A DNA stretch of 40,959 nt from Puniceicoccaceae bacterium (GTDB lineage: Bacteria > Verrucomicrobiota > Verrucomicrobiia > Opitutales > Opitutaceae), in NCBI GenBank assembly GCA_007695295.1, contig REEB01000155.1, positions 1 to 40,959 of the forward strand, read 5' to 3'. The notes under the pieces were generated by a model. The model saw nothing but the letters and a program-made list of their open reading frames with translations, was not told the origin of the DNA and ran no database searches. Position numbers and translations under genes: made by a program. The first letter of the stretch is position 1. Each line of letters starts with the position of its first letter. Below, in pieces: positions 1 through 13,387 of this stretch.

Positions 1-530
1 TATGGGTTTCTTATCCACGACGGCCCCTTTGTTCCGTTGGCGGTACTCCTGGCTTTTACCGTTACTCAGTTATTTGAAAGTTGCTTTCTTACTCCCAAAT
101 CATCGGACGCAACGTTCTTCATAATCCTCTCGTAATTTTCGTCGGCCTGCTCGCGGTGGCGTTGGTCTGGGGTGTTATTGGGATGATCATTGTCATTCCC
201 GTGCTCTCCATTGCGAAGCAGCTCTTAAAATTGAGTCCCAAGGCCGAGCCTTTTGCTTTTCTGCTCGGACCTTCCCACAGGCCACCCGGGAAAGCAATGA
301 TGAACTCCTCCGATGCTGTTCCAGAGCGCAGGCTTCTTTGCAGGCAGAGTGGCGAGAGTTCTCACTGGTTGCCACCATCCATCCTTCGACCAAGAAGAGC
401 CATGCCTGTGAATTGGGAAGACGGAGTCTTAAAGAGGTCGATCCATATCTTAGCCACCCCAATCGCTGTGCTGACCCCGCGGAATAGCGGACTTTCAACT
501 TCCGGTTTCTTGTCGAACCGCCGGCAATAG
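1..530 (+). pseudogene. AI-2E family transporter, C-terminal remnant with frameshift
   Basis: The segment is the C-terminal part of an AI-2E/PerM-type polytopic membrane protein and is cut by the window edge. Frame 1 reads a transmembrane stretch ending ...QLFESCFLTPK near base 98 and then meets a stop at 130-132. The family continuation (IIGRNVLHNPLVIFVGLL, then a hydrophobic helix and VIPVLSIAKQLL) is in frame 3 from about base 99. One base appears missing in the A-run at 96-98 (CCCAAATC where CCCAAAATC would keep the frame). Family-like sequence ends near base 271 (FAFLLG). The frame then runs on to 530 through low-complexity sequence that I do not recognise, so the normal stop also seems lost. 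A real pseudogene or a base-calling error would both explain this. The family assignment is fairly secure; the pseudogene state is inferred. Confidence 0.65.
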
Positions 531-563
531 TTGCCACGATGACAGAATCCACGCATCGCCGGA

Positions 564-1334
564 TCACGGGTATGGAAAATCCAGACCTTGCGGGAAGACG
601 TCCTCCGGCTCGTAGCCGAGCCACTCACGGGCGGGGGCCAGTTCCAGCACCTCCCCGGTCTTCGGTCGGCTGACCACAAACACGGTTGCACACTCCCCGG
701 GACCGGGCCGATCCGAGAGAACACACCGTTCGAAAAAACGGGCCGCATCGGCGTGGCTGAGGTAAACGTTTTCCCCGCCGACTTCCGCGATCCGGGCCGC
801 CCCCCGGGTACTCCGCGGCAGCCAGCCCACTCGTGCGTTGACCACTGAAATGGCGTGGCAGCGCGCAACCATCGCCCCCATTTCCTCACCCCAGACCTTG
901 GTCAGGGCATAGTGGTTGCGCGGATTCACCCCATCGGCCACCCGGATGGGCGCGTTCTTCTTCCAGCCACCGCCCACCACCTGTAGCGTGCTCGCCAGCA
1001 CCAGCCGCTGGATCCCAAACTCGCGGCACGCTTCGCAGATGTGGAAAAGGCCTTTCACATTCGGCTCCAGCAGCACGTCGAGAAAATCTGCATTGTCGGG
1101 ATAGGCCCCGAGATGAATCACCACCTCCATGCCTTTGACGGCGGCACGGACTTTGTCCCGATCCGCCAGATCGCCTTCCACGCTATCCTCCAAGCCTGGT
1201 GTCGGCCGGCGGGCGAAACCCCTCACGTGATGCCCCGCTTCCACCAGCCGCCGCACCACGGGGGCACCGACCGCTCCGGTGGAGCCGGTGACGAGGATGC
1301 GCCGGCTTTGTTCAGATCCGCTCGTGGCTGTCAT
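564..1334 (-). CDS. NAD(P)-dependent epimerase/dehydratase (extended SDR family)
   Basis: A 256-residue soluble Rossmann-fold enzyme of the extended short-chain dehydrogenase class. The nucleotide-binding glycine motif TGSTGAVG is at residues 16-23, an acidic SVEGDLAD turn near 51-58, the active-site Ser near 115 and the catalytic pair YxxxK as Y142 and K146. The short C-terminal domain and the HLGAYPDN segment resemble uronate dehydrogenase-like SDRs, but the substrate cannot be fixed from sequence. I chose the ATG at 1334 because it lies 11 codons before the first beta strand; the same frame is open upstream to 1529 but that stretch is not family-like. It stands alone, with no operon partner visible on this strand. 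Confidence 0.85.
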   Translation of the reverse strand: MTATSGSEQSRRILVTGSTGAVGAPVVRRLVEAGHHVRGFARRPTPGLEDSVEGDLADRDKVRAAVKGMEVVIHLGAYPDNADFLDVLLEPNVKGLFHICEACREFGIQRLVLASTLQVVGGGWKKNAPIRVADGVNPRNHYALTKVWGEEMGAMVARCHAISVVNARVGWLPRSTRGAARIAEVGGENVYLSHADAARFFERCVLSDRPGPGECATVFVVSRPKTGEVLELAPAREWLGYEPEDVFPQGLDFPYP

Positions 1335-1571
1335 CACTACGCAGTGGCACCCGGTGGTGGAATCAAACGGCGCCAGCGTGAGGCGGGCAACCGTGAACCG
1401 TATTCCCGGCGTTTCCCATCGTTCGTTCTCATGACCGGCAGCAGAAAGCAACGCCCCATGTGGGGGCAAGTCCCGAGTTTGCCCGCCGTCTACACCGGAA
1501 ACGGAGTCCGCCGAAGCAAGCCTGAGCACCAGTGGTTTCGCTTTCTGACGGCGAGGCTACCCCTTTTGGAA

Positions 1572-1611
1572 GGGAAAGACCCCATTGGAGCGCACCGTGG
1601 ATTGGGGTATC
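1572..1611 (+). promoter_or_regulatory. bipartite upstream motif, copy 1
   Basis: GGGAAAGACCCCATT (1572-1586) is followed after exactly 20 bases by GTATC (1607-1611), 8 bases before the ATG of the small membrane peptide. The same pair with the same spacing occurs at 7554-7593 ahead of the response-regulator/lipoprotein genes. It resembles a two-box promoter or operator. If GTATC were a -10 box, the transcript here would be almost leaderless, and the GGGG at 1604-1607 could instead serve as a ribosome binding site. Confidence 0.35.
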
Positions 1612-1619
1612 CTCGTTGC

Positions 1620-1775
1620 ATGAACCTACTGCTATTGATTGTTGTATTGCTCCTGCTCTTCGGTGGTGGAGGCTTTTATCTTGGCGGACCCGCTTTCGGA
1701 GGCGGAGCCCTTGGCCTGATTCTTTTGGTCTGTCTGATCATCTTTTTAATGGGTGGATTCAGTCGCAGGGCCTGA
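1620..1775 (+). CDS. small glycine-rich hydrophobic membrane peptide (DUF3309-like)
   Basis: A 51-residue protein made of two hydrophobic segments (about residues 2-14 and 30-45) separated by a glycine-rich turn (FGGGGFYLGG, then FGGGALG), with a basic SRR tail. Length and pattern match DUF3309-type peptides, which are often found in stress-gene neighbourhoods; no biochemical role is established. The ATG at 1620 gives the whole hydrophobic protein; a much longer frame upstream is antisense to the epimerase and is not coding. The bipartite motif at 1572-1611 lies just upstream. Family assignment is by pattern only. Confidence 0.7.
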   Translation: MNLLLLIVVLLLLFGGGGFYLGGPAFGGGALGLILLVCLIIFLMGGFSRRA

Positions 1776-1954
1776 GGCTCCGGGAACAGAAAAAGCCGAA
1801 ATCTCCCAACCCGGGATGCTGAGGCGGCACATTGATGCCGCTACAGCTCCCGGTGCAACGACTGTCGTCTGGTCTACCGCACACTGCGACCAAGGTAGCG
1901 CTTCCATGGTCTCATCCCATGGGCACTTGCATCGGGCATCACTGCCTTCGAGGG

Positions 1955-2166
1955 CGCCATCCCACTACGGCCAAAAAATTACCATTGTGGAGAAATCACA
2001 CTCCCTGCACCCGTGCCGCGCAGCCCTTGCCATCCAGGCGGGGTCCGCTTTGTCACCTGACCTGAAGCGCTAAGGCGCGGCCACACCGCTCAGCCGGTCG
2101 TCTCCTGGACCCGGCTCTCCACGATGCCCATGCCGACGGCATAGCGGGTGAGGGTGGCGGTGTCGT
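1955..2166. repeat. long direct repeat 1A: duplicated 3' end of the response regulator gene
   Basis: This segment matches 2442-2660 on the other side of the element at 2167-2441. Its right part (2090-2166) repeats the last 77 bases of the LuxR-type regulator gene (2584-2660), including its stop codon, with two mismatches. Its left part (about 1955-2089) matches the region downstream of that gene at roughly three quarters identity. The copy ends exactly where the element begins. The relic lacks the rest of the gene and is not expected to be translated. Confidence 0.8.
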
Positions 2167-2441
2167 CCTGAGTTCAACATTGGGAGACCCCTCTGTCCAA
2201 ACCCGTAATCGTAATCCTAATCCTAATCCTTCTCGTAATCCCATTTCCCGTTCTTCTGCAGGTCCTGCGCCGTACCCCGATGATTCTTCATCGATGCGGC
2301 TGGCAGATTGGCACTCGATCAGTCGATTATGATTACGAGCAGGATTACGATTACGATGGGTCGGGGGACACCCGATCCCGTAAAATCTCCATAGGAAATC
2401 AACGACTTACCCACGCAATGGGAAGTGCTGTTGAACTCAGG
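2167..2441 (+). mobile_element. MITE-like repeat element, copy 1
   Basis: A 275-bp element bounded by a perfect 13-bp terminal inverted repeat, CCTGAGTTCAACA at 2167-2179 and its complement at 2429-2441. Inside are two arms of complementary hexamer repeats, GTAATC-type at about 2203-2241 and GATTAC-type at about 2323-2358, able to form a long imperfect stem around an 80-base core. The core contains TCATCGATGCGGCTGGCAGA. A second copy lies at 10056-10310 in inverted orientation. No transposase is encoded, so mobility would need a factor supplied elsewhere. Confidence 0.7.
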
Positions 2442-2660
2442 AAGCCGCTTACCCACTAAATCCAAAACACCGCCATCGCGGGGAAACCACCGCTGCTCCC
2501 TGCACCCACGCCGCGCAGCCCCGGACTCCAAGCGAGGTCCGCTTCGCTGCCTAACCTGATCAGGCAAGGCGCGGCCCCGCCGCTCAGCCGGTCGTCTCCT
2601 GGACCCGGCTCTCAACGATGCCCATGCCAACGGCATAGCGGGTGAGGGTGGCGGTGTCGT
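2442..2660. repeat. long direct repeat 1B: native 3' end of the response regulator gene
   Basis: This is the partner of 1955-2166. It starts immediately after the right terminal repeat of the element and runs into the coding region of the intact LuxR-type regulator gene up to base 2660, where the similarity to copy A stops. It includes the stop codon region and about 140 bases of downstream sequence, with a perfect palindrome CCTGATCAGG at 2555-2564. Confidence 0.75.
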
Positions 2661-3258
2661 GGATGTTGAGTTTGCGCATGAGGTTGGTGCGGTGTTTTTC
2701 CACCGTCTTGATGCTGATCCCCAGTTCAACGGCGGTTTCTTTATTGGCCTTGCCCTCCGCGATCAACTGCAGCACCTCGGACTCGCGCGGAGTCAGGGCC
2801 GGCCGCTTTTTCGGGTCACCTCCCTCGTGAAGCCCGGAATGGATGTCACGGTAGCGCTGGAGAATGGCCTCGCTGAAAAACCGCCTCCCCTCATGGACCT
2901 CGCGAATGGCGTGGGCGAGGGCGCTGCCGGGTGCATGCTTGAGCACGAAACCCGCCGCTCCCGCTTCGATCGCACCTTCGACATAGGCGTCGTCGCCGTG
3001 CGCCGAAAGCATAAGCACGCGGCAATCCCGGTGCGCTTTGTGGAGTTGCCGGCAGGCATCGATGCCGTTGAGCAGAGGCAAGGCGATGTCCATGACAACC
3101 ACATCCGGGCGTAGTTCGGCAACCTTTTTAATGGCCTCCCGTCCGTTGGTGACTTCGCCGACGACCGTAAAATCGCCTTCGCCTTCAAGCAGAGTGCGGA
3201 TCCCCTCGCGCACGATGAGGTGATCTTCAGCCAGAATGATAGATATGGGGGATTTCAT
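2584..3258 (-). CDS. NarL/FixJ-type response regulator with LuxR HTH
   Basis: A 224-residue two-component regulator. The receiver domain spans residues 4-120 with the acidic pair E11/D12, the phospho-acceptor D57 in VVVMDIALP, the conserved Ser in MLSAHGD and Lys in GFVLKHA. A LuxR-type helix-turn-helix follows at about 150-215 (LTPRESEVLQLIAEG, then TVEKHRTNLMRKL). Phosphorylation by the kinase encoded just upstream, whose stop overlaps this start by 4 bp, should control DNA binding. It is the last gene of a three-gene signalling operon. Its 3' end is duplicated at 2090-2166 on the far side of a repeat element, but this copy is intact. Confidence 0.93.
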   Translation of the reverse strand: MKSPISIILAEDHLIVREGIRTLLEGEGDFTVVGEVTNGREAIKKVAELRPDVVVMDIALPLLNGIDACRQLHKAHRDCRVLMLSAHGDDAYVEGAIEAGAAGFVLKHAPGSALAHAIREVHEGRRFFSEAILQRYRDIHSGLHEGGDPKKRPALTPRESEVLQLIAEGKANKETAVELGISIKTVEKHRTNLMRKLNIHDTATLTRYAVGMGIVESRVQETTG

Positions 3259-4667
3259 GAGTTGATCGTGGGATCAGGGGTGGCGGTGGCGGTGGCGGCC
3301 GGACCCGTTCTGAAGCGGGGGACCGTCACTCGAATAGTGGTTCCTTTGCTGCGGGAGGAGGTGATCGAGAATTTACCGCCCACCATTTCCACGCGCTCCC
3401 GCATCCCAATCAGGCCCAGCCGTTTGACGTTCTTTCCATGGAGCGTCTTTTTCACATCAAACGATTTGCCGTCATCGCTGATTTCCAGGTGGATGCGCCG
3501 CTGCGTTTGCCGGAGACCCACCTCCACCCGCGTGGCCTTGGCGTGTTGCGCAACATTCGTCAAGGCGGCCTGAGCCACGCGATAGAGTACCACGGAGCGG
3601 TTGTCGCCGAGGGTATACATCTCGCGGGGCGCCGCCAGACTGACCGGAATCTCTGTCCGTTTCGTGAATTCCTTGATATAACTCCGGAGGGCCTGAACCA
3701 AGCCAAGGTCGTCCAGTTGGGTCGGCCGGAGCCCCATGGCAAATCGGTGCACACTATCAACCGACTGTTCCACCAGCTTTTGGGTTTTAATAATCTTCCC
3801 GGAGATGTCCATTGCGTCCGAAGCAGCCCCCCGGGCAAGGTCGGCCAGGTGAACATTGATCGCCACAAGGGTCTGCGCGATTTCATCGTGCAAATCATGG
3901 CTGATGCGTTTGCGCTCCTCCTCCTGCACATGCAGGACTTGGTGAGAGAGAAGCCGCAGTTCTTCCTCCATCAGCTTGGCTTGCTGCAGCAAACGACCTT
4001 GGCTTCGCCGGCTTTCCCGGAGTGATGCTTCGACCGCCTTGCGCCTAGAAATCTCACTCTCGAGCGCGGTGTTCATGGCCTCCAGCGCTTCCACCCGAAG
4101 CCGCGCCTCCTCCACGTGTTTTTGCGCCGTAATGTCAGAGACTGCGAGGCGACACAGCCGCCGGCCGTCCTGCGGAGACACGGTCAGCGCTGCCTGCAGA
4201 TCGACCCAGGCCGGTTCTTTCCCTTCGAGGTCAAGAGCCAGCTCGCAGACCTGCTTCTCCAAGCCCCCGAAGACATTGCGCAAAAACCCTTCCAAGGCTT
4301 CCCGGTCCCCCTTGGCGACAAATCCCGAAAAGCGCCGGCGTAGCAGTTTGGAGCGCTCGACCCCGAGCATGGCCGCTCCCGGCAGGTTCACCTCCAGAAT
4401 CCGGCCCCCTTCGTCCAGTGAGAAATAGCCCACCGGTGCGAAGTCATAGAGGTCGGTGTATTTCTCCACCAAGGCTTCGAGGTTGGCGCGGGCGGCGCGC
4501 AGCTCCTCGTTTTGCATCTCCAACTGAATCTGATGGACTTGGAGTTCATGCAGGATCCTGCGCGGATCGAGTTCCGGTGATGCCGGTGCCTCCGCCCGCA
4601 ACTGGTCTTCAGCCCGGCAGCGCAACGCGGCGGCATCCTCGTGAGGGCGGGCGGGCTTAGGTGCCAT
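3255..4667 (-). CDS. PAS-domain sensor histidine kinase (HisKA_3 type)
   Basis: A 470-residue cytoplasmic kinase with no transmembrane segment. A coiled coil (about 40-70) leads into a PAS domain (about 70-185, DFAPVGYFSLDEGGRILEVN), then a second coiled coil (185-245). The HisKA_3 dimerisation domain carries the phospho-acceptor in RKRISHDLHDEIAQ, most likely H260. The HATPase domain at about 350-455 has the N box (ALTNVAQHAKA) and a glycine box (GLIGMRERV). Such kinases pair with NarL-type regulators, and the next gene is one, overlapping by 4 bp. The start overlaps the end of the CheB-CheR fusion gene by 11 bp, which supports translational coupling. The short basic N-terminus and Ala/Thr-rich C-terminal tail look unstructured. 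Confidence 0.92.
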   Translation of the reverse strand: MAPKPARPHEDAAALRCRAEDQLRAEAPASPELDPRRILHELQVHQIQLEMQNEELRAARANLEALVEKYTDLYDFAPVGYFSLDEGGRILEVNLPGAAMLGVERSKLLRRRFSGFVAKGDREALEGFLRNVFGGLEKQVCELALDLEGKEPAWVDLQAALTVSPQDGRRLCRLAVSDITAQKHVEEARLRVEALEAMNTALESEISRRKAVEASLRESRRSQGRLLQQAKLMEEELRLLSHQVLHVQEEERKRISHDLHDEIAQTLVAINVHLADLARGAASDAMDISGKIIKTQKLVEQSVDSVHRFAMGLRPTQLDDLGLVQALRSYIKEFTKRTEIPVSLAAPREMYTLGDNRSVVLYRVAQAALTNVAQHAKATRVEVGLRQTQRRIHLEISDDGKSFDVKKTLHGKNVKRLGLIGMRERVEMVGGKFSITSSRSKGTTIRVTVPRFRTGPAATATATPDPTINS

Positions 4668-7317
4668 CGGAATCCCCCTTCGTTTTCAGTTCGCGGGAGA
4701 CCCGGGCCTCCAGATCGGCGTGTTGATCGCGCAACCGACCCTCCAACTGCTTGGCCGCCGTGATATCCGAAAAAGTAATGACCACGCCGTCGATCCGGTT
4801 GTCCAAGGTCCGGTAAGGCATAATGCGCACCGTGAACCATGAGCCATCCTCGGTGCTGACGGCTTTCTCCGATGCGAGCAGGCTCCGCAAAACCCCCCGC
4901 GCATCCTCCTCCAACTCGGGATAACAGAGGCGCGAGGCCAAGTCGGTGATGGGGCGCCCGAGGTCGCCCTTGATCAGCTTGAAGATGGAAGTCGCCCGTT
5001 CCGTGAACCGCCGCACCTTGAGGTCATCATCCAGAAAGAGAGTGGCGATGTCGGTGCTGTCGAGGAGGTTCTTCATGTCGTTGCTTGCGCGGGACAACTC
5101 CTCGACCTTGGCCTGCAGCTCGGCGTTGACCGTCTGCAGCTCCTCGTTCAGCGACTGCATCTCCTCCTTCGAAGTCATCAACTCCTCATTGGCAGATTGG
5201 ACTTCCTCATTGGTGGACTGCAGCTCTTCGTTGGCCGAGAGAAGTTCCTCCTGTGCGGTTTGCATGCTCTCGCGGGTATGGCGCGCGTCTTCCCGCGCTT
5301 CGTGCAACTCGCGCCGGAGTTCCTCCAATTGTGGTTGCGTGGCCGATGCCGCGGCGGAACGCCCGCGGCGTTTCTCTTCCGCGGGAAGCGCCACTTCGTG
5401 AAAGGCGATCATGATCAAGCCCTCCAACTCGCCGGCCTCGGTGATGCGCTCGACCCCGACATCCACCGCCCGGCCCTCGCCGATCCCCTCGGGCCGCAGT
5501 CCCCGGACCAAAATGCGCTCCTCCTTCCGCAAAGCCTTCTGAAAAGCGCCCAGGAGTTCGTTGCGCAAGCCGTCGCGCACCATGGCAAAGAGGTTCCAAT
5601 TCGCCTTGCCCGCCGCCGGCTCCAGAAATTTGCCCGTGCGCCCGTTGATGTAAAGAATGTCGCCCTTGTCATTGGCGAGGACCGAAGGGGGGGCATAGGA
5701 CCGCAGGACAAATGCCTCCGCCAGCGACTGCAGGTTCTCGCCCGGCTTCGGGTTTCGCAAGGCATGGACCCGATCCGGCACCCGCTTGCCGAAGGTCGCC
5801 GGAAACTCCGGCGGATGGTACCGGGCCTTGGGTTCGAGACACTGGTACAGGCGCAGCTTGGCGTCAATGGGCGCAAACAGGGAGGGGAACTCGCCCACCG
5901 TCTCCGCGCTGCCAAGAAAAAGGATCCCGCCCGGATTCAAGCTGTAGTGAAAGAGCGGGATCAACTTCCGCTGGATTTCCGGGTCGAGGTAGATGAGGAG
6001 ATTGCGGCAACTGAGGATATCCAACTTGGTGAAGGGCGGATCCGAAATGAGATTCTGGGTCGCGAAGATGACCATCTCCCGGATCTCGCCGCGGATCCGG
6101 TAGCCGCGCTCTTCCTTCATAAAAAAACGATTGAGGTGGTTCGCCGGAACATCGGCGGCGATATTTTCCGGGTAGTGGCCGGTTCTCGCCCGGTCGACGG
6201 CGTCGCCATCGAGATCGGTGGCAAAAACCTGCATGGGGCAATGCCCCGCGGACGGGTGTGCGCCGGCGGCCGTCTTCATCACCATGGCCAGGGAGAAGGC
6301 CTCCTCTCCGGTCGAGCAACCCGGCACCCACGCCCGCAGGGGACTCCCCGGCGCATGGTCCGCCAGGAGCTTGGGAAGGATGCCCTCCCGGAGCCGGTCC
6401 CAAGCGGGACGATCGCGAAAAAAGCTCGTCACTCCAATCAGCAATTCCTTGAAGAGCAGATCCAGCTCCTGGGAATTGTCGCGCAGGTAGCGGATGTAGA
6501 GCTCGATCCGATCGATCTGGTGGATGCCCATGCGGCGCCCGATCCGCCGGTACAGGGTGTTGCACTTGTAGTGTGAAAAATCGTGCCTGGAATGCTCGCG
6601 CAGCAAGATCACGGCCTTCTCCAACGCGCTCCGCGAACTCTCCTGCAACTCCTCCGCACTCTCCCGGCCAGGCGGCACCCGGTCCAGCCAGGCAAGGATC
6701 CTTGCCGGAAGTTCCCCCGCCGGAGCGACGATATCGGCCAAGCCGGCCTCGATCGCGCTGCCCGGCATGCTGTCGCATTTGGCCGTTGAGGGCTCCTGCA
6801 CCAGAACCAGCCCGCCCTGCTCCTTGATCGCCCGCAGCCCCAGCGTGCCGTCGGATCCCATCCCCGAAAGAATCACCCCGATGCTCCGCTCCCGTTGGTC
6901 CAAGGCAAGCGAGCTCAGGAAATAATCAATCGGCAGGCGCTGGCCGCGCGGCGCTTTGGGCTCCAGCAGATGCAAAACCCCGTGCAGCAACGACATGTCC
7001 TTGTTCGGCGGAATCACGTAGACGTGGTCCTTCTTCACCGGGGTGCGGTCTTCCACTTGGACAACGGGCAGAGCGGTGCCGCGCTGCAGCAACTCCGGCA
7101 TCATGCCCTCGCGGGTCGGGTCGAGGTGTTGGATGACCACATAGGCGATGCCGCCGTCCGCGGGTGCGGTGGCAAAAAACTGCTCCAGCGCCTCCAACCC
7201 CCCCGCGGAGGCACCAATGCCCACCATGGGGAAAGCATCTTCCCCCGGGTTCCGCACTTGCTCCTGCCCCGCCTCACGATCGTTTCCCTTCGGATCCCCG
7301 TTTGTTTCCACATTCAT
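4657..7317 (-). CDS. CheB-CheR-PAS fusion signalling protein
   Basis: An 886-residue protein. Residues 28-210 form a CheB methylesterase domain with catalytic S37 (GASAGG), H64 (VIQHLDP) and D156 (GMGSDG), but no receiver domain precedes it. Residues 228-500 form a CheR methyltransferase with SAM motif VPGCSTGEEA (331-340), FATDLD and the CRNLLIYLD segment. A PAS-like region (about 535-640), a coiled coil with repeated EEL/QS(T/A)NEE units (about 670-755) and a second PAS domain (about 755-865) follow. In this family the PAS parts probably sense a cytosolic signal. No chemoreceptor gene lies in the window, so the methylation target is unknown. It is the first gene of the operon with the PAS kinase and the LuxR-type regulator. 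Confidence 0.93.
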   Translation of the reverse strand: MNVETNGDPKGNDREAGQEQVRNPGEDAFPMVGIGASAGGLEALEQFFATAPADGGIAYVVIQHLDPTREGMMPELLQRGTALPVVQVEDRTPVKKDHVYVIPPNKDMSLLHGVLHLLEPKAPRGQRLPIDYFLSSLALDQRERSIGVILSGMGSDGTLGLRAIKEQGGLVLVQEPSTAKCDSMPGSAIEAGLADIVAPAGELPARILAWLDRVPPGRESAEELQESSRSALEKAVILLREHSRHDFSHYKCNTLYRRIGRRMGIHQIDRIELYIRYLRDNSQELDLLFKELLIGVTSFFRDRPAWDRLREGILPKLLADHAPGSPLRAWVPGCSTGEEAFSLAMVMKTAAGAHPSAGHCPMQVFATDLDGDAVDRARTGHYPENIAADVPANHLNRFFMKEERGYRIRGEIREMVIFATQNLISDPPFTKLDILSCRNLLIYLDPEIQRKLIPLFHYSLNPGGILFLGSAETVGEFPSLFAPIDAKLRLYQCLEPKARYHPPEFPATFGKRVPDRVHALRNPKPGENLQSLAEAFVLRSYAPPSVLANDKGDILYINGRTGKFLEPAAGKANWNLFAMVRDGLRNELLGAFQKALRKEERILVRGLRPEGIGEGRAVDVGVERITEAGELEGLIMIAFHEVALPAEEKRRGRSAAASATQPQLEELRRELHEAREDARHTRESMQTAQEELLSANEELQSTNEEVQSANEELMTSKEEMQSLNEELQTVNAELQAKVEELSRASNDMKNLLDSTDIATLFLDDDLKVRRFTERATSIFKLIKGDLGRPITDLASRLCYPELEEDARGVLRSLLASEKAVSTEDGSWFTVRIMPYRTLDNRIDGVVITFSDITAAKQLEGRLRDQHADLEARVSRELKTKGDSDGT

Positions 7318-7672
7318 GCAGCACTTTGATTCAACTCATGCGTTCAGCTCGGGCCACGCGTTTAGAACCGGCAAACCATACGATTGGGCCGGCGAAATTT
7401 CACGATAGCTCGGGCCAATCGCCCCCTGCAAGCGAATATGGGTGGGGTGATGACCCACCCTGCCATCGGACAGTCCGCCACTCCCGGTGGTGTCACCCAA
7501 AAGTAGTCAACCACCCGTGCTGCGTGGTTTCGTTTGTGAAAAAATGCGGTGTAGGGGAAGACCCCATTTAAAAACCAGTGCTGGGTTCGTATCATTACCG
7601 GCGTGAACGGCTTTCTCCATTCAATCGAACAATTTGTTTCAGTGCCTCAGTGACACAGACCACACAGCCGCC
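7318..7672. other. divergent intergenic region
   Basis: These 355 bases separate the start of the CheB-CheR operon (leftward) from the response regulator (rightward) and must hold both promoters. Visible items are a perfect hairpin GGGTGGG/CCCACCC at 7440-7460 without a T-run and the bipartite motif at 7554-7593. I see no convincing sigma-70 hexamer pair and no coding frame that resembles a protein. Confidence 0.5.
7554..7593 (+). promoter_or_regulatory. bipartite upstream motif, copy 2
   Basis: GGGGAAGACCCCATT (7554-7568), a 20-base spacer and GTATC (7589-7593) repeat the arrangement found at 1572-1611, with 14 of 15 bases of the first box shared. It lies 79 bases upstream of the regulator ATG at 7673, a normal distance for a promoter. 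A promoter for an alternative sigma factor is a reasonable guess. Confidence 0.4.
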
Positions 7673-8185
7673 ATGAACCTACGCCAATCGGTCCCATCTC
7701 CCCCCGGTTCCTACTTTCCGCTCGCAACCAAGAATGCCTTCCCCACCCCGATCTTCGCCGACCGGTGCCCCATACTCGTTGTCGCCGAAGACAATGAAAT
7801 CACACGCGAGCTAATTGCCTTGGGACTGGCTGCGGAGGGATGCATTGTCCGTTGTGCAGAAGACGGCGAAGAGGGATGGCAAAGCCTTTGTGCCGAACCC
7901 TTCGATTTGCTCATCACCGACCTCGAAATGCCCAAGCTCAGCGGGCTCGATTTGGTGCGCCGCATCCGTGCGCAGTCCCTTCGCCAGCCCATCATTCTCA
8001 TGTCGGGGAATTTGCCGGAGCTCACCCCCGAATTGGAGGCATTGCTCACTCCGGGTGCCGCCCTTGCCAAGCCCATTCCCCTCCAGAACCTTCTTTCCAC
8101 GATCACGGCCCTGCTCGAATCCGCCCGCAGTGGTGAAACACCCCATAGTCTGGAGGGGGCCGGCAACGGTAGCGTACATCCATGA
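7673..8185 (+). CDS. single-domain (CheY-like) response regulator
   Basis: A 170-residue protein with one receiver domain at about 33-148: acidic pair E39/D40, phospho-acceptor D83 in LLITDLEMP, conserved Ser in ILMSGN and K133 in ALAKPI. No output domain follows; the C-terminus is a short polar tail. The first 30 residues are Pro/Ser-rich and may be non-structural, so translation could also begin further in. A TTG 13 codons upstream (7634) is an alternative, but the ATG is preferred. It probably works by phospho-dependent protein contact, possibly with the kinase encoded on the opposite strand. The stop overlaps the lipoprotein ATG by 4 bp. Confidence 0.85.
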   Translation: MNLRQSVPSPPGSYFPLATKNAFPTPIFADRCPILVVAEDNEITRELIALGLAAEGCIVRCAEDGEEGWQSLCAEPFDLLITDLEMPKLSGLDLVRRIRAQSLRQPIILMSGNLPELTPELEALLTPGAALAKPIPLQNLLSTITALLESARSGETPHSLEGAGNGSVHP

Positions 8186-8652
8186 AAACCGCATATTTGA
8201 TTATCGGCCCGCTCGCCCTTGCCACCCTCGTGATCGGATGCAAACCATCGGCCCGCTCCGGAAGCGAGCCGGAAACCTCTGCGACCCGCCAGATCAGTCA
8301 GGCGCCAGCGGAGACCCGTCCGTCAACGGCCGACTTGGACTCCTTCAGGCATGCCCAAAAAGCGGCCTATATCAAAACCCTCGAAACTCGTCTGGCAGAG
8401 CTTAATCAGAACATTGACGAGCTTTCCGCCGACATCGAGAGATCAAGTCTGGCCGTCAAAGCGGAAGCACAACCGCGGGTCATGGCCTTGCGTGCTCAGT
8501 CCGACCTGCTCCAGGAGCAATTGGACACGGTGAAAGACGCCGGTGAATCAACTTGGGAAAGCGTCAAGACCTCCACGAGCAATGCTTACAGCGAATTGAA
8601 AGAAGGCTTTCACAACACCCGGGAATGGCTGGGCGAAAAGATCTCACCCTGA
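8182..8652 (+). CDS. coiled-coil lipoprotein, stress-protein-like
   Basis: A 156-residue predicted lipoprotein. A hydrophobic signal segment (residues 5-19) ends in the lipobox VIGC with the lipidated Cys at residue 20. A Ser/Thr/Pro-rich linker follows, then a long amphipathic helical region (about 55-125), and a C-terminal segment (ESTWESVKTSTSNAYSELKE) of the YtxH/LEA-like type seen in envelope stress proteins. It starts inside the stop codon of the response regulator, so the two are co-transcribed. The molecular function is unknown; an envelope stress role is inferred from its sequence type and neighbours. Confidence 0.75.
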   Translation: MKTAYLIIGPLALATLVIGCKPSARSGSEPETSATRQISQAPAETRPSTADLDSFRHAQKAAYIKTLETRLAELNQNIDELSADIERSSLAVKAEAQPRVMALRAQSDLLQEQLDTVKDAGESTWESVKTSTSNAYSELKEGFHNTREWLGEKISP

Positions 8653-9004
8653 TCGCGGCCTTCATCATCGCCCGGCCTTGCTTCCTGCAGTGCAGTCGGC
8701 AAAGGACGATGGAATGCATGGACGAGAACAGAACACCATCACCAGGCGGATTCAAGCCGCAACCCTTTGGGTGGGCCGCCCAGTGCGGCCGCGGAAACGC
8801 ACTTCTGACCAACGCTAGCCGTGAATCTTGTCAGCGGGCCCGTTCGTTGACCAAGTCCGGCCTGAACATCAAATTCTGCGAAACAGCGTCGCGGTAACAG
8901 CGAGTCCCATCCTGGACGGTAATAATGGATCCTGTCCGGCATGATTCGGAGGCCTGAAATCGATTGCGGCCGGCGACAACTTGCGGTCCGGGACAATCCG
9001 AGCG
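8653..9004. other. intergenic stretch without recognised content
   Basis: These 352 bases lie between the lipoprotein stop and the transglutaminase start. Short open frames exist on both strands but show no domain-like pattern. I found no clear terminator, promoter hexamers or repeat. Confidence 0.4.
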
Positions 9005-9946
9005 ATGAGTACTGCCTATCCAGCCATGAATCCCACTTTTCCTTTCGATATCACCCTGCGCGTGGGCTGCAGCCTGGCCTACGAAGTCACGGGCACCGCT
9101 TCACTCCTGCTCAACGTCCAGCCCCGAACCTCAGGCCAGCATGCCGTCATTTTTGAAGCCTTGACGCTGGGCAACGAGCTTCCGTCCACTGAATTCACCG
9201 ATAGTCACGGCAACCGCGTCCTGAGGGTGAAGCTCGCGCCGGGCTCCAACTACATCCGGCACGATGCGATCGTCGCGGCGTCCTCCCGCCCCGACAACCA
9301 CGGCATGCCCGACGTGCAACCGCTTCCCCCCGACCAGTTGCCCCCGGAAGCACTCCGCTACCTTGCGCCCAGCCGCTATTGCGATTCCGACAAACTGTCC
9401 AATTTCGCCTGGGAAAAATTCGGGCACATCGAACACGGCCTGCCGCGGGTCCGTGCGATCAGCAAGTGGATTCATGATACTATCGAATACCGCTACCTGT
9501 CAGGTCGACCCGATCTCTCAGCTTGGGATGTCTTGCAGCGCGGCTACGGCGTCTGTCGCGATTTTGCCCATTTGGCCACGGCACTAAACCGGACCTTCAA
9601 CCTCCCCGCGCGCTATGTGGCCGGCCATATGCCGGACATCGGATTCCCCGATCCCGAAAATCACATGGATTTCCACGCCTACGCCGAAGTCTTTGTCGGG
9701 GGGTATTGGTTCGCAACCGATGCCCGGTTTCACGTGCCCCGGATCGGCCGGATCAGGATTGCCCACGGAATGGACGCGGCCGACTGCCCGTTCTCAACCA
9801 TTTACGGCAGTGCCGTCCTCAGCTACTGCCAAGTCTGGGCCTACCAAGTGGAGCGGGGGACGGTGGGCGTCGGAGATCCGCTCGATTTATCAAAACGCCT
9901 CGACAACCAGACGACGATCCGAACCGAAAGCCTGGAACCCCGCTGA
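9005..9946 (+). CDS. transglutaminase-like cysteine protease family protein
   Basis: A 313-residue protein of the bacterial transglutaminase-like superfamily. An N-terminal beta-rich domain (about 1-130) precedes the papain-like core, which shows the catalytic Cys in GYGVCRDFAH, the His in HMDFHAYAEV and the Asp in WFATDARF. Such proteins are usually proteases or amidases on peptides, and the substrate is unknown. No signal peptide is evident. The ATG at 9005 is chosen; the ATG at 9026 is equally possible. The last few codons lie inside direct repeat 2A (9927-10059), so the C-terminus may have been affected by the element insertion. Confidence 0.85.
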   Translation: MSTAYPAMNPTFPFDITLRVGCSLAYEVTGTASLLLNVQPRTSGQHAVIFEALTLGNELPSTEFTDSHGNRVLRVKLAPGSNYIRHDAIVAASSRPDNHGMPDVQPLPPDQLPPEALRYLAPSRYCDSDKLSNFAWEKFGHIEHGLPRVRAISKWIHDTIEYRYLSGRPDLSAWDVLQRGYGVCRDFAHLATALNRTFNLPARYVAGHMPDIGFPDPENHMDFHAYAEVFVGGYWFATDARFHVPRIGRIRIAHGMDAADCPFSTIYGSAVLSYCQVWAYQVERGTVGVGDPLDLSKRLDNQTTIRTESLEPR

Positions 9947-10059
9947 GAAACGTGCCGGGCGTTGGTCGGACGCTGGTCAGAACGCACCCCGGCAAATCCT
10001 TGGACCCGGCATCCTCCGCGGAGGCCCTGCGGCGGGCGACGGCTCCGTCATTCCTCCTG
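9927..10059. repeat. long direct repeat 2A
   Basis: This segment matches 10311-10432 at about 90 percent, apart from an 11-base insertion that partly repeats GGTCGGACGCTGGTCAG. It begins inside the last codons of the transglutaminase gene and ends at CCTG, the first bases of the element. Its right end repeats the stop codon and last codons of the membrane protein gene that lies beyond the element. Confidence 0.8.
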
Positions 10060-10310
10060 AGGTCAACAGCACTACCCATGGCGTCCGTAAGTCGTTGCTC
10101 ACCAATGGAGAGATTGCGCCCGTACCCATCATAATCGTAATCCTGCTCGTAATCCTAATCGACGGATCGAATGCACTTCTGCCAGCCGCATCGATGAAGA
10201 GTCCTCTGGGTACGGTCCAGGACCTGCATAAGAACGGGGAGTGGGACTACGATTAGGATTACGAGAAAGATTACGGGCTTGGACCAATGTGTCCTATTGT
10301 TGAACTCAGG
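10056..10310 (-). mobile_element. MITE-like repeat element, copy 2 (inverted)
   Basis: A 255-bp copy of the element at 2167-2441 in reverse orientation. The terminal inverted repeats are 10056-10068 (CCTGAGGTCAACA, one mismatch) and 10298-10310 (perfect). The GTAATC/GATTAC arms are at about 10131-10161 and 10245-10275, and the conserved core block TCATCGATGCGGCTGGCAGA is readable on the minus strand. Apparent open frames rich in Ile/Val/Leu across it are products of the hexamer arms, not a protein. Confidence 0.7.
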
Positions 10311-10432
10311 AAAGGTTGGAACCCCGCTGAGGCATTTGCCGGGCGCTGGTCAGAACGCACCCCGGCAAATCCTTGGACCCGGCATCAGTCGCGGAGGCCC
10401 TGCGGCGGGCGACATCTCCGTCATTGCTCCTG
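10311..10432. repeat. long direct repeat 2B with GC-rich hairpin
   Basis: The partner of 9927-10059. It starts directly after the right terminal repeat of the element and ends four codons into the membrane protein gene, stop codon included. It carries a perfect 10-bp inverted repeat ATTTGCCGGG/CCCGGCAAAT at about 10334-10370 with a 17-base loop, which could act as a two-way transcript end between convergent genes, though no T-run follows. Confidence 0.75.
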
Positions 10433-11302
10433 CACAAAGGCGTTGCGGAAGGTACCGGTCTCCGTCCGCAGGTCGTCGGGAAGATCCGCGCCGGTGGCAT
10501 ATTGAAAGAGCAGGGTCTTGAACACCGAGTCCACCGCCGAGGAAAACGAAAACCACAGCAACATCACCAACGCGGCGAGGGCGATGGTCAGGCTGAGCGT
10601 CAGGCCGCCGGTTTCCCAAGTGGCGAAAATCGCCAGCCCGAGCAGCAGGTAAAGGGGGATGCCGAGCAGAAACAGAACGCCGTTGATCGAAAACGTCCCC
10701 ACCAGCGCCGTGCCCCAGGTTTCCCTGACCAACCGCAGCGAGGACTTGAAGGCCGAGACCGGCCCTTCCCCCCGCACGGCGATGATCGGCACTACGAAAA
10801 ACGTCATCGCGGTCCAGGCGGTTCCCAAGAGCGACACCACCAGGCGGCCGACTTTTCGATTGTTCTCCAGGGATCGGATCACCATCCCGACCGCCGCGGC
10901 AACCAACGCCCAGGCGGCGATCTGCGGCAGGCGCTTGAGCGCGCCCCGCAAACCGTCCCCGACCCGCGGCGCATCGCCTTCGATCACCCGCATGGCGGAG
11001 ATCATCAGCGCACTGTTGAAAAAGACGATCACCAGGTAATTGACGAAATAAAACCCGAAAACGACCAACCCCGCGGCGATCCGCTCGCCATCGGTCATGG
11101 TGCCGGCATCCTGGGCCTCCATCCATCCCTCGATTGTGCCGCTGCCCCAAAGGGGCCCGGCAAACGAAAGCAGCACCAGGATCGTGGCTAATCCGGAAAG
11201 CACCGGAAAGACCATCAGGACTTTGTGCGTCCAGACGGTGCCGAGGCTGAGCTTGGTAAACTCCCAACTGCGCTTAAGGGTACTGAACATAACCGCCATC
11301 AA
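10421..11302 (-). CDS. polytopic integral membrane protein, DUF6159-like
   Basis: A 293-residue membrane protein with about six hydrophobic helices: near 28-50, 78-100, 130-145, 158-180, 205-230 and 232-262. The soluble loop MEAQDAGTMTDGERI separates the first two. The overall plan, with the RxxEFTKLSLGTVW N-terminus and the FKSSLRLVRETWG amphipathic segment, is like DUF6159 proteins, which resemble glycerophosphoryl diester phosphodiesterase membrane domains. No enzymatic motif is visible. The ATG at 11302 or the internal ATG five codons later (MFSTLKRSW) could be the start. The final codons and stop are inside direct repeat 2B. Confidence 0.75.
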   Translation of the reverse strand: MMAVMFSTLKRSWEFTKLSLGTVWTHKVLMVFPVLSGLATILVLLSFAGPLWGSGTIEGWMEAQDAGTMTDGERIAAGLVVFGFYFVNYLVIVFFNSALMISAMRVIEGDAPRVGDGLRGALKRLPQIAAWALVAAAVGMVIRSLENNRKVGRLVVSLLGTAWTAMTFFVVPIIAVRGEGPVSAFKSSLRLVRETWGTALVGTFSINGVLFLLGIPLYLLLGLAIFATWETGGLTLSLTIALAALVMLLWFSFSSAVDSVFKTLLFQYATGADLPDDLRTETGTFRNAFVQEQ

Positions 11303-11812
11303 GAAGAAGATTTCCCGGCCCGCAAGCGCGGAGTCCCGGCCGTGATAGGAGAGGAATCAGGCGGCAATCTGCTTCCGCCGCTTCCCATACCAGGCGGGTG
11401 AAAAACCGAATTCGGGCTGGCTGGTTCGATCGATTTATTGTCGGAGGTGGGTTGTTAATCGCGTGGATATTCCGGCGATGAAATCACTCCAGTTCCGCAG
11501 GGCATGGAATGGCTCCCTCCACCGCACACCCGGGCAACCAACGCGCCTTTCAGGGTTCTCCAGCCTCTGCACACCTGATCCTCGCGGTCTGCCGTGAGAC
11601 GCCACTCGACGAGCAAACCGAGATCGATCGACCGCAGGCCGCACCTGCCATCTTTTGACACCAGATTCTCGGCGGTGGCCGGAGGGCACCAGCCCGCCGC
11701 TGCTCGCTCAGCAGCAGAGGCCGCCGGTCGGGCCGCGTGGAACGTGACCGCCGGTAAAACCTTCCTCTGACCAACCCTCGGTCGACCCGGAGACTCGCCG
11801 TCCGGCCGGGCA
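11303..11812. other. 510-base stretch without recognised gene
   Basis: This lies between the PurA stop and the start of the membrane protein, both on the minus strand. Short frames on the minus strand (for example 11455-11661) show no family resemblance and no ribosome binding site. It may hold the promoter of the membrane protein gene and the PurA transcript end, but I cannot point to either. Confidence 0.4.
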
Positions 11813-13387
11813 CTACACGGTCAATTCCTCCACCCCGCCGCGGTCCAGCCGCAGCAACTCGTCGGTCGGCGGGAGATCGCGGATGACCTGCTCGCGGTCG
11901 GGACCGACGCCCAAGTAGCGCAGGTTGGGCAGGGGATCCAAGGGCGCGCCCTCCGGCCAAGCCGCCTCGATCACCGCCCGCATCATCCCCGCGGTGTAGG
12001 CGCGGGCCGCTTCAGGCAGGTCAGCAAACCGGCGAACCGAGCCGAGATCTTCCCGCCAGGAGGGATAAAGGCGGTACACGGGCCGAAGGCGACGGCGCAC
12101 CGCCTCATCACGCGGGACCCGTTGGATCCGCCGCCCGGCCTCATCCTCATAAGCGTATCCGATTTTCAGTGACGGAACGGCGCCGCCGTCCGCCCCGAGG
12201 GCGTCGATCTTGTTGATCATGAGATCGTCGAACCCGCCGTAGCGGAGAGTGTCGGCCTTTTCCACCGCATCAAACCAGCCGACCATGCGCTGGCGGCCGG
12301 TGGAGGTGCCGAACTCGAGGCGCTTGAGCCGTTCGCCCATGGGGTCGCCGTCCGGGATTTGGGTGAGAAAGGTGTGGGTGCCGACCTTGGTGTCGTAAGC
12401 CTTGGCCACCCCGAAGGTGTGGACGGGCTGCACGGGGATGCCAGCAGACTGGAACAACTCCGGCGTGTAGGTGTGGGAGGCGGTCACGTTGGGGGAAAAC
12501 CCGTGCCTCTTGTCCAGCCAGTAGGCTTGGCCGAACTCGCCGATCACGCTCCGCTCCGCCCGCAGCGCGCCCAAGACGCGCTCCCGCACATCCCCAATCC
12601 GCCCGGCCAAAGCCGATCCCGCCGTCCACCAGGTCTCGGCCATGGCCTCGACCTCGAGCGCGAATCCGCTTCCGCTCCGAAAGCGGCCGAAGTCGAACTC
12701 CGCCTCGGTGAAGATGCCCGCCTCGATCGCGGGCCGGTTGGCCCGCACTTCCGCCTCCGTGAGTCGGTCAAAAAAACCGGCGAAGGTCGCCGCATCGACC
12801 CGGCAGACATGCTCGATGGTGCGGAGCGCGCGGTCCGCCCGCGCCGCCAGCCGATCCCGGAAAGACCGCGCGTCGCCCCGAAACTCGGCGAAGAAGATGG
12901 GGAACTGCCCGACCTCATCGAGGTAGGCGGGGGTGATGCCCCGGCCGGTGGAGCCGCGGGCGGGCTCGCCGAGCACGTGTTCGCGGTAGTGCTCCCAGGC
13001 CAAGTCGAGCAGCCGGTGGCAAAGGTCGGAGACCATCGTGCGTTCGTCGACCAACAGCCGGTCCCGGATCACATGACCGCGCGCCTCCAGCGGCCGCGTC
13101 TCCCACCAGATCTTGCGTGGGTCGGCCACCACCCCGGCCCCGAGCGCAAGGCACGGGACCGACTCCGCCACCACCCCGGCGGGGAGCAGGTTCAGCTTGA
13201 GGCCACCGGCGGTATGGCCGGAGTTGGCGCCTCCGTTGACCTTGAGGACGACTCCAACCGGCGCTTCCAGACCGGTGGCGGCGCGAAGTTCGTCGATCAC
13301 CTCCGGGATGAGCCGGCCCTTGCCTTCGTCGCCGGTGCTGACACCGACGTCGGCGATGAGATTGCTGCGAAAGGGTTTCAATGCCAT
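11813..13387 (-). CDS. purA: divergent, long adenylosuccinate synthetase
   Basis: A 524-residue protein, against about 430 for typical PurA, which makes adenylosuccinate from IMP, aspartate and GTP in AMP synthesis. Core motifs are present: GDEGKG (19-24, catalytic D20), NGGANSGHT (51-59, catalytic H58), GSTGRGITPAY (145-155), an LD..HGFSPNVTAS segment (291-304) matching the PurA substrate loop, the aspartate loop GTSTGRQR (360-367) and NKID (392-395) as the guanine-specificity motif. Extra length is mainly around 160-280. The aspartate loop is less basic than the usual TTGRxRR. Enzyme activity as PurA is likely but a changed substrate preference is possible. It stands alone, 133 bases downstream of the CNNM gene's stop. 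Confidence 0.83.
   Translation of the reverse strand: MALKPFRSNLIADVGVSTGDEGKGRLIPEVIDELRAATGLEAPVGVVLKVNGGANSGHTAGGLKLNLLPAGVVAESVPCLALGAGVVADPRKIWWETRPLEARGHVIRDRLLVDERTMVSDLCHRLLDLAWEHYREHVLGEPARGSTGRGITPAYLDEVGQFPIFFAEFRGDARSFRDRLAARADRALRTIEHVCRVDAATFAGFFDRLTEAEVRANRPAIEAGIFTEAEFDFGRFRSGSGFALEVEAMAETWWTAGSALAGRIGDVRERVLGALRAERSVIGEFGQAYWLDKRHGFSPNVTASHTYTPELFQSAGIPVQPVHTFGVAKAYDTKVGTHTFLTQIPDGDPMGERLKRLEFGTSTGRQRMVGWFDAVEKADTLRYGGFDDLMINKIDALGADGGAVPSLKIGYAYEDEAGRRIQRVPRDEAVRRRLRPVYRLYPSWREDLGSVRRFADLPEAARAYTAGMMRAVIEAAWPEGAPLDPLPNLRYLGVGPDREQVIRDLPPTDELLRLDRGGVEELTV

Follow-up and report, generated by a model that had tools for sequence, protein, structure and literature searches.

The window, by which we mean the whole analysed stretch of 40,959 nucleotides, carries two copies of a short element, each of which sits between the two halves of a long direct repeat. 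It corresponds to contig C266 of the 4.6-Mb, 278-contig genome of a Puniceicoccaceae bacterium (assembly 98.55% complete), and the same plan recurs at other loci of this genome with repeats of very different length. We think it likely that the element inserts between two widely and variably spaced nicks, that repair then makes the long duplication, and that the family consists of non-autonomous elements derived from S23/IVP elements. Bacterial transposable elements are usually known by short duplications, the length of which is fixed by the transposase. Duplications that vary about tenfold and reach about 200 bp would point to an insertion chemistry other than the usual one, for the study of which this genome offers about 14 natural junctions.

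Copy 2 lies in a duplicated convergent gene end

Copy 2 of the element occupies positions 10056 to 10310 (255 bp, forward strand, strand being that of the ancestral IVP ORF). To its left lies one copy of the target duplication (9927 to 10055, 129 nt) and to its right the other (10311 to 10432, of which the 118 nt from 10311 to 10428 are aligned), both given on the forward strand. A sequence-only reading of this DNA had described a 122-bp repeat, about 90% identical apart from an 11-base insertion. The alignment bears this out: 106 of the 118 aligned columns are identical and 12 mismatched (89.8%), plus one gap of 11 columns. The length of 122 nt and the end at 10432 arise because CCTG, the first four letters of the element, by chance also follows in the right flank; if counted, these letters add 4 nt to each repeat copy (to 10059 and 10432). 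With a score of 149 the flank alignment stands far above 812 mismatched pairs of left and right flanks, the highest of which reached 44 and the next 36.

The repeat also contains the ends of two convergent genes, as had been claimed. The transglutaminase-like gene (8981 to 9946, forward strand; PF01841, E 2.6e-18) is intact and has its 3' end, with the stop codon, in the left repeat copy. The gene for a DUF6159 membrane protein (10421 to 11302, reverse strand; PF19656, E 3.2e-35) is likewise intact and ends in the right copy. Each repeat copy holds in addition a dead tail of the other gene: the last DUF6159 codons and stop on the left, and on the right the end of the transglutaminase (ERLEPR-stop versus ESLEPR-stop). 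Such reciprocal dead tails are what the duplication of one target stretch predicts.

The possibility that the flanks belong to a dispersed repeat family of their own was ruled out. When positions 9900 to 10460 were compared with the own genome, all 55 listed non-self matches fell within query positions 153 to 415, i. e. within the element. An Opitutales metagenome-assembled genome encodes a transglutaminase with 86% identity to that of the window; for those of Opitutaceae and other Verrucomicrobia the identity is 65-77%. Among 42 loci fetched for an orthologous convergent pair, all had a transglutaminase match and none a DUF6159 match (E <= 1e-6).

Copy 1 follows the same plan

Copy 1 (2167 to 2441, 275 bp) lies on the reverse strand and is thus oriented oppositely to copy 2. 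The earlier statement that two loci share one plan holds, the repeat at copy 1 being longer and more diverged (1961-2166 aligned to 2452-2660, 81.9% identical). Its right copy (2442 to 2660, forward strand) includes the last 77 bp of a LuxR-type response regulator gene (2584 to 3258, reverse strand; PF00072 and PF00196), which is 86% identical to a full-length ortholog in the relative G029. Its left copy (1961 to 2166, forward strand) holds a dead antisense fragment of the 3' end of this gene.

Divergence between the two copies is uneven. In the coding part 2 of 77 positions differ, in the rest 31 of 128 (24%; p = 2e-5). A single duplication without later gene conversion predicts even divergence, and the unevenness at copy 1 counts against it. 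Gene conversion between the repeat units is the simplest account, as a candidate only. Elsewhere, L047 shows a contrast similar to that of copy 1 (p = 0.03) and L043 shows none (p = 0.58).

Anatomy and distribution of the element family

Both copies have the ends CCTGAGTTCAACA and TGTTGAACTCAGG and inner arms rich in GTAATC/GATTAC. In copy 1 the terminal inverted repeats are perfect (13/13); in copy 2, where they read CCTGAGGTCAACA...TGTTGAACTCAGG, there is one mismatch at one end. The matches listed in the own genome numbered 55 with copy 2 as the query and 63 with copy 1. By profile search, the family comprises about 40 copies (counted as matches) in 35 loci. The 13-bp ends occur at 33 places with at most one mismatch, versus one place for a reversed control pattern. 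Copies are 244-285 bp long, about 260 bp being the family size; the element boundaries, which were placed by hand, shift by a few bases from one analysis to another. The largest full copy, at L059, has 609 bp and contains a decayed IVP ORF only.

Nucleotide similarity searches, from which distant relatives could escape, gave no match to the element in 28 relatives and in 34 further genomes reached via their transglutaminase loci. The GTAATC-type motif was present in 12 other genomes of the 252 searched in the family, G119 being the richest with 31 sites. Among the fetched loci of this fragmented assembly no transposase gene was seen between element-type ends, and no partner transposon with such ends was found.

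Rfam gave no match in positions 1-13000 of the window. As single-stranded DNA copy 2 folds with z = -2.5. An alignment of 15 copies gave a weak RNA consensus (-16.9 kcal/mol) with two-sided changes in 2 of 29 pairs and an unfavourable covariation term. Thus we claim no RNA function for the element.

Long flanking repeats recur at other loci

The 320 bases to the left of the element were aligned to the 320 bases to its right at 29 loci, with all 812 mismatched pairs as controls (highest scores 44, 36 and 29). An earlier version of the test comprised 25 loci and 600 mismatched pairs, with a control maximum of 36. Six of the 35 element loci were left out, as the element there reaches or approaches the end of its contig or has a short flank on one side (L052, L053, L056, L057, L064 and L067); L068 and L069 carry no element. 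Fourteen of the 29 loci scored at least 39 and thereby exceeded 811 of the 812 controls; by the strict count, 12 exceeded them all. The repeats usually abut the element, so that the earlier proposal of a long duplication that belongs to the insertion itself is supported well beyond the two copies from which it was drawn.

Ten of the 14 repeat-bearing loci have a repeat no more than 10 bases away from the element on both sides. Aligned lengths at these loci are 206-209 nt at copy 1, 118-129 nt at copy 2, 108 nt at L035, 30 nt at L041, 143 nt at L043, 22 nt at L045, 51 nt at L046, 85-91 nt at L047, 30 nt at L059 and 62 nt at L060. A comparison of repeat lengths across copies, as had been suggested, therefore shows that long repeats recur and that their length is not constant: from 22 to 209 nt it spans about tenfold. 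At L037, L039 and L062 the repeat lies within 2 bases of one element end only, and at L042 it adjoins neither; L037, L039 and L042 begin at a contig start. Repeat identity ranges from about 82% to 100%, the youngest-looking repeats being nearly identical (51/51 at L046, 113/114 at L037). Element ends at most repeat-bearing loci are one conserved inverted repeat, and several junctions have an extra 2-7 nt between element end and repeat. Inspection of the junctions by eye revealed no target consensus at the nick positions.

No repeat above controls was found at 15 of the 29 loci, among which L036, L050 and L058 have weak ones (scores 26-29) that adjoin the left element end. That the copies without repeats are older is unsupported. 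They are not clearly more degenerate (mean identity 76.0% versus 76.8% for repeat-bearing copies, p = 0.23), and hence a part of the insertions may have left no long duplication behind.

A gene end lies inside the repeat at 8 of the 14 loci. It was recognized from coding-like ORFs at copy 1, copy 2 (two genes), L039, L043, L047 and L062, from comparison with a relative at L060, and as a 5' end at L037. For copy 2 the sequence-only reading had stressed that the duplication spares both genes. Both are indeed intact, yet there is no sign that insertion aims at gene ends. With a complete target stretch on either side of the element, an insertion at a gene end is less harmful. Since insertion is tolerated there, gene sparing probably reflects the survivorship of tolerated insertions and requires no targeting.

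The long repeats also have consequences for the genome, as they create dead gene fragments and local tandem arrays, of which one was seen. In this case (L043:1-628 at the start of C67 and L052:1831-2275 at the end of C245) three repeat units alternate with two elements. The two elements are 96.1% identical outside a 13-column gap, versus a mean of about 76% between copies. To judge from these alignments, the array would fit unequal crossing-over in the long repeats.

A relative carries the gene ends in single copy

G029, which is about 83% identical in the aligned block and of which 61 stretches were fetched, has an ortholog at 3 of the 14 repeat loci and no match to the element. At all three comparable loci (copy 1, L060 and L037; one flank alignable at each) the gene end that is repeated in our genome is present once. 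The response-regulator end of both repeat units at copy 1 maps to one and the same place in G029. Unrelated origins of the two repeat halves, which would have spoken against a duplication, were thus looked for and not found at this locus. The gene tail at L060 occurs once in G029, and so does the UPF0047 gene of L037 (62% identical over 140 residues), of which the left unit in the own genome holds the first 22 codons only, followed by the element. These comparisons are one-sided empty sites, on the alignable side only. Correspondingly, the non-functional repeat copies carry dead fragments of a response regulator 3' end, a UPF0047 5' end (L037) and a gene tail (L060).

Relation to S23/IVP elements

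S23/IVP elements carry an ORF of PF05635, the '23S rRNA-intervening sequence protein'. The larger family members at L058, L059 and L062 have a decayed ORF to which IVP ORFs found in relatives match (tblastn E 8.8e-5, 1.6e-9 and 4.5e-5, respectively), and exactly these three loci have the element interrupted by extra sequence. At L059 the GTAATC/GATTAC arms flank the decayed ORF on both sides. The longest frame of L059 has no Pfam match, and so only the translated similarity of broken frames speaks for the link. In the own genome (G000) no PF05635 match was obtained; 13 of 18 other genomes have at least one. To go by this similarity, the family looks as if it had arisen by internal deletion from an S23/IVP four-helix-bundle element. 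The repeat at L059 is 30 nt long, with 29 matches, despite the decayed ORF of this copy, which therefore probably moved in trans.

Like the element, S23/IVP elements have inverted arms around an ORF, and IVP genes of relatives carry comparable short inverted 7-mer arrays. What differs here is that most copies have no ORF, that extra outer termini (CCTGAGTTCAACA) are present and that the flanking direct repeats are long. At 40 loci with IVP genes in relatives no convincing long flush repeat was seen; only L163 scored above the control maximum of 33, with a repeat of low complexity. An AT-rich, heptamer-like sequence with an RBS-ATG-like end forms a direct repeat on both sides of the IVP gene at L163 (2022-2061 / 2465-2505, G020). 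Nor were long duplications seen by eye at the GTAATC-motif elements of 23 loci in other genomes. In G007 a 175-nt, 97% identical direct repeat (L162:705-879 / 1663-1837) stands on both sides of an IVP-type gene that neighbours a type I restriction-modification gene. We did not count it as a further case; no element-like end adjoins its left side, and the locus is a restriction-modification locus.

A passage in PMC4990558 reports heptameric repeats for the Coxiella IVS; there, function and origin of IVSs are called unclear and transposition is one of the cited hypotheses. A related family with long duplications may bear on how S23/IVS elements move.

Mechanism of insertion

The element has precise ends, the repeats start at these ends, and their length varies. 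This argues for insertion between two variably spaced nicks, and we infer staggered nicks with gap repair as part of the best explanation. The nicks in the two target strands would be separated by 20 to about 210 bases and follow no evident sequence, and the element would be joined between them. Repair synthesis would then copy the inter-nick stretch on both sides of the element. The enzyme would be supplied in trans. A gene with its end in the duplicated stretch would stay intact, by which such insertions could survive. The usual cut-and-paste enzymes fix the nick spacing.

A specific form of this explanation is target-primed retrotransposition as known from LINEs and SINEs: an element RNA would be reverse transcribed in trans from the target nick, and the second nick would be variable. 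We consider this possible, on the unlikely side. Target duplications of variable length are typical of non-LTR elements, and those found here are variable as well. L060 has no 5' end with respect to the ORF strand, its first model position being 49, and still has a 62-nt repeat that adjoins the truncated end. Truncation at this position recurs in L063, which has a weak flush repeat of 17 nt, and L035 is without the first 9 model positions. The extra 2-7 nt at several junctions point in the same direction, as does the resemblance of PF05635 proteins to Avd, the accessory protein of diversity-generating retroelements, which is described in a passage of PMC10053308. However, the sole RVT_1 match in the own genome is a broken fragment, and neither an intact reverse transcriptase nor an intact IVP gene was found there. 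Truncation is not clearly one-sided (7 copies without the 5' part versus 5 without the 3' part), and the element has neither an A-tail nor a conserved RNA fold. Furthermore, 7 of the 13 IVP-bearing genomes have no RVT_1 match (G001, G003, G005, G009, G011, G012 and G021), and by the same count there is no support for the view that IVP elements require a reverse transcriptase. The RVT_1 fragment itself (L200:307-534, contig C98) appears group II intron-like by eye.

In a more daring version the family would be the bacterial equivalent of SINEs: an S23/IVP (Avd-like) element would have given rise to a hairpin RNA which is inserted by target priming, with the reverse transcriptase of another element acting in trans. 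We regard this as doubtful. If true, it would give the S23/IVS elements, 'selfish but of unknown mobility', a transposition mechanism.

Alternatively, the tandem duplication could have come first or independently, by slippage or break repair, with the element inserted later or captured as filler at the junction. Tandem duplications with filler are a known product of break repair, and some loci show microhomology at the junction, e. g. CCTG at copy 2. We nevertheless hold this to be improbable: only 6 of 890 same-locus windows away from the element reached a score of 36, all six in L036, where a repeat of gene scale is native, and one conserved inverted repeat at most repeat-bearing loci would not be expected from the capture of filler. 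Recombination between alleles with independent insertions at nearby sites, by which the stretch between the sites would be duplicated in copies from diverged lineages, is very improbable. It would account for the uneven divergence at copy 1. Yet two independent insertions close together would be required at many loci, the near-identical repeats of L046 and L037 show no allelic divergence, and L043 has no contrast between coding and noncoding parts. A MITE of the ordinary cut-and-paste type, with duplications that are short and fixed, is hardly credible. It would agree with the terminal inverted repeats, small size, missing coding capacity and copy number of the element, and the long repeats would then be secondary or artefacts of an assembly in 278 contigs with several copies at contig ends. 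However, the repeats adjoin the element at independent loci, their length changes from locus to locus, and the two copies of a repeat differ (e. g. 89.8% and 81.9% identity), a pattern that neither collapsed nor duplicated assembly produces.

Comparison with known systems

Among the papers listed in searches of open-licence PMC text, no title or abstract opening describes a bacterial family with such duplications. With bacterial MITEs the element shares that it is short, noncoding, multicopy and non-autonomous and has terminal inverted repeats. The target duplication of a MITE, however, has the length produced by the partner transposase, normally short and fixed according to a passage in PMC3119063, whereas that of the element varies from 22 to 209 nt.

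Non-LTR retrotransposons and SINEs have variable or exceptionally long duplications, and the element shares with them a truncated copy with a flush duplication. The rotifer element R9, which we compare by title only, reportedly makes an exceptionally long target duplication. Unlike these, the element is bacterial and has no reverse transcriptase and no A-tail.

REP sequences and REPINs, which are moved by RAYT (Y1) transposases, are palindromic and intergenic like the element, and the own genome has 73 palindromic REP-like sites and 14 Y1_Tnp (RAYT-like) matches. The element, in contrast, is larger and of different sequence; to our knowledge, HUH enzymes should leave no target duplication when they move REPINs. 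REP pairs and the element occur together at several loci: at L039, L050, L044, L054 and L036 copies or fragments of it lie beside or around an inverted pair of REP-like palindromes of the GGGAGCATCTTGCTCCC type. At L039 and L050 outer element ends are found on both sides of this pair, as if the whole were composite.
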